From a bacterium (GTDB lineage: Bacteria > Planctomycetota > Planctomycetia > Pirellulales > UBA1268): 35,710 nt of DNA. The stretch is taken from positions 1-35,710 of the forward strand of contig JAPOJV010000017.1 of the NCBI GenBank assembly GCA_029978085.1. The letters are read 5' to 3'. The notes below the pieces were generated by a model. It had not been told where the DNA came from and searched no databases. It saw only the letters and a list, made by a program, of their open reading frames with translations. The position numbers were made by a program, and so were the translations under genes. Below are positions 17,315 through 34,961 of the stretch, piece after piece. Every line of letters begins with the position of its first letter. The first letter of the stretch is position 1.

Positions 17315-17465
17315 GCGTGGGTTCGGGGCTGCCCGTGCCCCGTCGCCGGACGCTCGCTACGAACATCCTGTTCTTCGCTCGCTCGGATGCCGCCTTCGCT
17401 CCGCCATCCTGGCTGCGCTCGGCGGCATACGCCGGCTCCTGGGGCACGGGCAGCCCCTCACGGCG
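17315..17465 (+). repeat. Dispersed structured repeat family, copy 1 (short variant)
   Basis: GCGTGG...GGGGCTGCCCGTGCCCC (17325-17341) ... GGGGCACGGGCAGCCCC (17441-17457) ...CACGGCG; internal CGGCG-GCATA-CGCCG hairpin shared with copies 2 and 3. Confidence 0.9.
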
Positions 17466-24091: not shown

Positions 24092-24346
24092 CGCCGTGAG
24101 GGGCTGCCCATGCCCCAGGAGCCGGCGTATGCCGCCGAGCGCAGGCAGGATGCCTGAGCGAATTCGGGGAGGCGAGAGGTGCGGTGCAAGCTCGAGGAGC
24201 ATTTGGACCGAGTCTTCGAGGTCCCGCGACGATCTGAAAGACCGCGCAGCGGCGACTTGTACCGCCCCCGAGCCGGCGACACACATGAGACGTGTGCGAC
24301 CTCAGCGAGCGTCCGGCGACGGGGCATGGGCAGCCCCGAACCACGC
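24092..24346 (-). repeat. Dispersed structured repeat family, copy 2 (long variant, reverse orientation)
   Basis: Terminal arms 24100-24116 GGGGCTGCCCATGCCCC and 24321-24337 GGGGCATGGGCAGCCCC are perfect reverse complements; shares an identical 51-nt core (24182-24232) with copy 3. Confidence 0.93.
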
Positions 24347-24397
24347 CACAGGAGCCCGGGGATCCCCACGCTCGCGCTCAGGGCTTGTATGGTCGCA

Positions 24398-34746: not shown

Positions 34747-34961
34747 CGTGGGTCGGGGTTGCCCACGCCCCGAGAGCCGGACGCTCGCTGGGGTCGCACA
34801 CGTAAAAGGTGTGTCGCCGGCTCGGGGGCGGTACAAGTCTCGTCGCGGGACCTCGAAGACTCGGTCCAAATGCTCCTCGAGCTTGCACCGACCCCCTCGC
34901 CTCCCTGCCTGCGCTCGGCGGCATACGCCGGCTCTCGGGGCGTGGGCACCCCCTCACGTCG
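34746..34961 (+). repeat. Dispersed structured repeat family, copy 3
   Basis: Arms 34755-34780 GGGGTTGCCCACGCCCCGAGAGCCGG and 34928-34953 CCGGCTCTCGGGGCGTGGGCACCCCC pair over 26 nt with one mismatch; 51-nt core 34840-34890 identical to copy 2. Confidence 0.93.

Follow-up and report, generated by a model that had tools for sequence, protein, structure and literature searches.

What the recurrent short CATCCTG hairpins of this locus belong to, and what might recognize them, is the question raised by the window, i.e., the whole 35,710-nucleotide stretch of planctomycete DNA analysed here. The sequence-only reading had noted three of them, with a constant TCC loop and closing pairs and with distal stems that differ but stay complementary, and all three are present in the sequence: GAACATCCTGTTC at 17361–17373, GCCATCCTGGC at 17403–17413, and CAGGCATCCTGCCTG on the minus strand of 24142–24156. 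They form the inner pair of arms of a dispersed repeat, here called family A, which is probably a non-autonomous mobile element that expanded in one family of freshwater Pirellulales-type planctomycetes and is recognized by its single-strand fold.

The hairpins and the repeat that carries them

The CATCCTG motif occurs 11 times in the window, three times in repeat copies and eight times elsewhere; the former are flanked by 2–4 extra complementary pairs (n = 3) and the latter by 0–1 (n = 8), and dinucleotide-shuffled windows contain a mean of 0.45 such hairpins (maximum 4 in 200 shuffles). When the sampled loci of this genome are pooled, at least two extra pairs are found at 83 of the 86 motifs near the element core versus two of the 21 elsewhere. 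The recurrence of the hairpins and their enrichment inside the repeat are thus borne out on many copies, and complementary flanks are the rule in further copies, the opposite of the outcome that would have spoken against them.

Family A is a geneless repeat of ca. 136 bp with the ends TC-GGGG...CCCC-TC (end sequences GGNTC-GGGG and CCCC-TCRC). Its fold comprises a 17-bp terminal stem, P1, enclosing a short P1b, the arm H1, and the stem P3 bearing the arm H2. H1 and H2 have a module in common, which as read runs CGCTnC, a variable stem of 4–5 bp, CATCCTG with the TCC loop, the other side of the stem, and TnCGCT. Both hairpins belong, as arms, to a single three-way-junction fold that the terminal repeats close, and the view of them as a second, independent covariation signal has to be abandoned.

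Copy 1 (17322–17459) is intact and matches the covariance model R1 on the as-read strand with 149.8 bits (E = 2e-27); its putative structured strand is the minus one, the sequence-only reading having been made on the plus strand. Its P1 is formed by 17325–17341 (GGGGCTGCCCGTGCCCC) and the exact reverse complement of that sequence at 17441–17457 (17 pairs). Inside P1 lie the N1 pair (17353 with 17381 on the plus strand), which is C-G here and T-A or A-T in other copies, the H1 module (17355–17379, with the minus strand AGCGAAGAACAGGATGTTCGTAGCG containing G.A pairs and a GGA loop), P3 (17387–17394 paired with 17421–17428, with strong covariation), and the H2 module (17397–17419, minus strand), laid out as that of H1. 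The H1 hairpin at 17361–17373 is GAACA-TCC-TGTTC as read and GAACA-GGA-TGTTC on the structured minus strand, and the H2 hairpin at 17403–17413 is GCCA-TCC-TGGC and GCCA-GGA-TGGC, respectively.

The two other copies of the window are interrupted by a different repeat. Copy 2 (24098–24340, plus strand structured, P1 arms 24100–24116 and 24321–24337), which is matched by fragments of the covariance model, has a family B element nested inside it and retains a single hairpin at 24142–24156 (CAGGCA-GGA-TGCCTG on the plus strand). In copy 3 (34752–34955, minus strand structured, 48.1 bits, P1 34755–34771 and 34937–34953) the interior is replaced by family B, with its GGGGG...CCCCC core at 34824–34896 on the plus strand, and this nested insert removed H1 and most of H2. 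The hairpins seen initially thus hold for copies 1 and 2, with only one left in copy 2, and H1 is gone from copy 3.

Family B is a separate repeat of ca. 90 bp with GGGGG...CCCCC ends, found in the window at 34814–34905 and, in the inverted orientation relative to copy 3, at 24182–24269 on the minus strand, and the genome contains 40 or more matches to it, with identity of up to 98–100%. At one orthologous site family A is intact in this genome (G000, L007) and contains family B in the relative G010 (L331/L332). A small hairpin, CGACCAATCCGCT...AGCGGATCGGTGCCCG, is inserted at varying points of family A, the H1 and H2 arms included (L077, L022/L076, L225, L238). The intergenic region of copy 2 holds a shortened, one-hairpin family A in G006 (L146), and in G010 (L131/L154) a tandem array of the ca. 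36-bp unit ATCCCCTCGCTCGCGCTCAGGGCTTGTATGGGCGTCG stands in the place of copy 2; a single unit related to this array adjoins copy 2 in the window at 24358–24392. A putative insertion of family A into itself (L093) was rejected, the sequence being a partial tandem duplication.

Covariation and the structured strand

In a MAFFT alignment of 47 diverse family A copies, 95.0% of cells are paired in the fold, and changes on both sides of a pair are found in 167 cells of 25 pairs, as compared with 46.9 cells and 10.5 pairs in shuffled controls, none of the 500 shuffles attaining the observed value, and with only 7–23 such cells in slid-structure controls. The signal is present both within this genome alone (97 cells vs. 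25.8 shuffled) and among its relatives (436 vs. 105.7), and most helices of the fold contribute to it. The 17 pairs of P1 have 92–94% of cells paired; the N1 pair (columns 34–64) is UA in 25, CG in 15, and AU in two of the 47 copies; and the H2 stem switches between C-G and G-C (32:15 in the 47 copies, 26 GC to 21 CG in this genome alone). The middle two pairs of H1 vary freely, while the outer G-C and the inner C-G and A-T pairs are nearly fixed. The description of the hairpins given from the sequence alone is accurate in this respect: the C-G and A-T closing pairs are nearly constant across copies, and GC, AU, CG, and UA all occur at the distal positions.

Not every covarying cell is a separate mutational event. 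Orthologous copies of this genome and G010 are near-identical at one site (L006/L091, three differences), and at two others (L017/L337 and L088/L341) they show block differences spanning both arms of a stem between flanks that are alike, which indicates that much of the in-place covariation reflects the swapping of whole, preformed subfamily variants, through either conversion or re-insertion; owing to such exchange between copies, covarying cells are not independent events.

One-sided mismatches, counted on the strand as read in model-fitted alignments, are strongly polar. In this genome 97 paired changes are accompanied by 46 A.C, three G.U, and 18 other one-sided cells (A.C vs. G.U by pairs, 15 vs. 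2, p = 0.002), and the relatives show 124 A.C versus 27 G.U (by pairs, 27 vs. 4, p = 3e-5). The alignment model scores G.U on the as-read strand, so that any alignment bias runs against the A.C excess. Since A.C on one strand corresponds to G.U (or G.T) on the other, it is the reverse complement of the strand as read that is under structural constraint, or else exposed to C-to-T damage, and this strand most likely represents the structured molecule. As separate evidence, of 178 copies folded as RNA, 173 are more stable as the reverse complement (−88.3 vs. −78.8 kcal/mol).

With the strand set in this way, the loop originally taken as TCC, although indeed constant, becomes GGA within CAGGATG, the sequence of the loop and closing pairs in most hairpins (of 326 hairpin rows, 306 keep GGA); CACGATG takes its place in a few relatives. 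Invariant C.T juxtapositions of the as-read strand become G.A or A.G on the reverse complement, where they flank two-pair helices, and a direct tally finds them kept at eight positions in 44–47 of the 47 copies. The triloop is thus conserved as had been proposed, but the conserved unit is larger and includes the flanking AGCGnA and GnAGCG with their G.A pairs. In G002 and G021 (L094, L096) ordinary pairs have replaced the G.A juxtapositions of H1 and the loop is in some cases CACGATG, as if the constraint had been lost.

The reading of these arms as recognition hairpins is plausible, and reasonable in the light of their recurrence, constant loop and closing pairs, and covarying distal stems, although the three candidate mobilizers described below failed the presence test. 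The strand opposite to that read would fold, when single-stranded, into a fixed shape, a long P1 with two arms inside, each arm presenting a short stem of free sequence with the CAGGATG (GGA) loop on a G.A-rich helix. Recognition would then be by shape and not by stem sequence, so that stem pairs may drift as long as they remain paired, while the loop, the closing pairs, and the G.A pairs are held constant. The likeliest recognizer would be an enzyme that copies or moves the element via a single-stranded form, either ssDNA or RNA.

CsrA binding and template switching as alternatives

The CAGGATG loops recall the binding sites of CsrA. According to this explanation, family A is transcribed from the structured strand, from a promoter of its own or by read-through at the 3' ends of genes, and the pair of GGA-loop hairpins is bound by a CsrA dimer, the copies serving as scattered decoys or 3'-UTR regulatory sites. 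The hairpin loops of CsrB contain ca. 18 repeats of CAGGA(U/A/C)G, and the SELEX consensus of CsrA is RUACARGGAUGU (PMC7652899); five-base A-GGA-X loops devoid of the N of A(N)GGAX are genuine, lower-affinity targets of RsmE, and ANGGAX loops are high-affinity ones (PMC4005645). The insertion variants CATGGATG, CAGGGATG, and CAAGGATG match ANGGAX, CsrA is encoded in all 53 genomes tested (2–14 matches each, four in this genome), and three CsrA proteins of this genome retain L4 and R44. From the motif, binding of CsrA to the family A hairpins is possible.

CsrA, however, is equally common in genomes devoid of family A, and the 64 copies lying between co-directional genes are found in either orientation (30 vs. 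34), so that family A is not tied to neighbouring transcripts; on these two grounds the CsrA reading is given a low probability. In addition, a common promoter-like flank was not seen at family A, the likeness to CsrB leaves the conserved G.A pairs and the terminal stem unexplained, a few relatives have CACGATG loops, and no Csr/Rsm model is among the four Rfam matches obtained up to E = 10. CsrB/CsrC and RsmX/Y/Z share the repeated CAGGAUG-type GGA-loop hairpins with the putative structured strand of family A, but they are encoded by one or a few sRNA genes, each of which contains many sites, unlike family A with two sites per copy in 77 dispersed copies, set in a conserved G.A-rich scaffold and known from DNA sequence. 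Equally doubtful is a combined version, in which a selfish or domesticated mobile repeat would spread paired putative CsrA-binding hairpins, acting as a CsrB-like sponge or a regulon builder, while transposition would select the one-strand RNA or ssDNA fold.

Mutational maintenance of palindromes is considerably less probable. Template switching during replication, by copying one arm onto the other, would yield paired changes without any selection for structure, and it is described in PMC8794818 as making and keeping hairpins with paired substitutions. The scarcity of one-sided intermediates relative to paired changes in this genome and the conversion of the H1 G.A positions into ordinary pairs in G002 and G021 are in accord with it; yet it would convert the eight G.A juxtapositions to Watson–Crick pairs, and these are kept while neighbouring pairs vary, and it predicts neither the fixed loop nor the strand polarity.

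Distribution, mobility and known repeat families

The assembly containing the window (3.31 Mb, 263 contigs) has 77 copies of family A (43 forward and 34 reverse) when counted with a pattern for the H1 arm, the reversed pattern used as a control giving none. Within the taxonomic family, the same pattern detects the repeat in 28 of the 36 genomes sampled; outside it, the 161 other genomes of the order gave no hit. GTDB contigs related to the window come from freshwater planctomycete metagenome-assembled genomes (MAGs). Several MAGs with family A bear the titles Candidatus Kuenenia stuttgartiensis or Planctomicrobium piriforme; such names are at odds with the repeat that these MAGs have in common and are probably label errors. 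No match of family A was found in plasmids or IMG/VR, no related family in Rfam at gathering or relaxed thresholds, and no description of it in a literature search confined to papers available without subscription. Family A appears to be a new family of small, mobile interspersed repeats that are structured and have a readable active strand.

Its placement was determined with gene calls from a simple codon model trained on five genes of the window, and the counts are therefore approximate. None of the 139 copies with usable context lies inside a predicted gene; 65 of 138 lie between convergent genes (background 23%, p = 3e-10 for enrichment) and nine of 138 between divergent ones (p = 0.004 for depletion), and the median distance to gene 3' ends is 68 bp. 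That the copies are ordinary 3'-end structures, bidirectional terminators or mRNA-stabilizing hairpins between convergent genes, is highly improbable, for despite this location and a very stable terminal stem most orthologous intergenic sites have no element, no T run follows P1 in copy 1, a terminator role needs no conserved inner arms, loops or strand polarity, and pneumococcal repeats with the same bias, BOX, RUP, and SPRITE, are interpreted as parasitic inserts tolerated there (PMC3049150).

The distribution among orthologous sites bears on the preferred reading, that of a mobile repeat. At the sites of copies 1 and 2 the element is missing in most relatives, and G008 has a family A copy that is flanked by the same gene pair as copy 2 and points the other way. 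G010, the closest relative, has no element at the L050 site and is filled at other orthologous sites. This empty site leaves the exact ends unfixed, and a scan of 170 copies for the direct repeats expected of a target-site duplication showed no clear excess at any offset.

Three candidates for a consistent mobilizer were rejected owing to their patchy presence among element-rich genomes: many genomes with the element lack Y1/RAYT (PF01797), reverse transcriptase (PF00078, RVT_1) is absent from this genome, G010–G013, G120, G138, and G196, and IS110 (PF01548) from most tested genomes, including this one and several element-rich relatives. The test for a parent element, i.e., one with ends common to a resident transposase-coding element, covered these three families. 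An autonomous partner between closely spaced copies was likewise rejected, the three proteins scanned there matching a ROK protein, MnmE, and aldehyde dehydrogenase. Nine Y1 loci showed no match to family A and their flanks carry other repeats. In G010 (L290, contig C105) REP-like hairpins that carry a GTAG tag and have TCC as their triloop (GTAGGCCCGTCACTCCGTGACGGGC) are arranged in tandem around a Y1 transposase gene, and hairpins resembling this type flank some family A copies, e.g., on the left of L024. Other Y1 transposase genes of the genus (L284, L285, L287, L288, L289) have inverted repeats of the AAAAAGGTGCCAGCCACCAAATCTGGGTAA type at their boundaries, as in published TIRtrons.

Among known repeats, BOX, RUP, and SPRITE of Streptococcus pneumoniae (PMC3049150) resemble family A in being small, geneless, and high in copy number, with a predicted RNA fold and enrichment between convergent genes. 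The modularity of BOX also has its counterpart in the one-hairpin deletion form L146, nested family B, and inserts of hairpin D. Family A, compared with them by features and not by sequence, differs in being limited to one planctomycete family and in forming one closed unit, a three-way junction with inverted repeats at its termini, for which strand-polar covariation and G.A-rich arms were measured. The GTAG/CGTC REPs and the TIRs of TIRtrons, mobilized by RAYT and TIRYT (PMC3733652), are likewise palindromic, intergenic, and of high copy number, occur in planctomycete hosts, and may be recognized as ssDNA, but REPs are 20–40 bp long with a GTAG/CGTC tag at the stem foot, in contrast to the ca. 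136 bp and TC-GGGG...CCCC-TC ends of family A, which is not the repeat flanking resident Y1 genes of the genus; those carry AAAAAGGTGCCAGCCACC... or other repeats. With MITEs it shares short length, dispersal, the absence of genes, and terminal inverted repeats (17 bp and perfect in copy 1), and it differs from them by a strongly conserved internal structure and by having no parent IS among the Y1, RVT_1, and IS110 families.

Small interspersed repeats usually display their structure through folding alone. Here, the many copies across one family of genomes let mismatch polarity reveal the active strand, on which the CAGGATG-loop fold is conserved. If the CsrA reading were true, a mobile repeat would disperse CsrA sites across an uncultured planctomycete lineage. 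What moves such repeats, and whether CsrA sites ride along with them, is directly testable in this lineage, which is known mainly from metagenome-assembled genomes.
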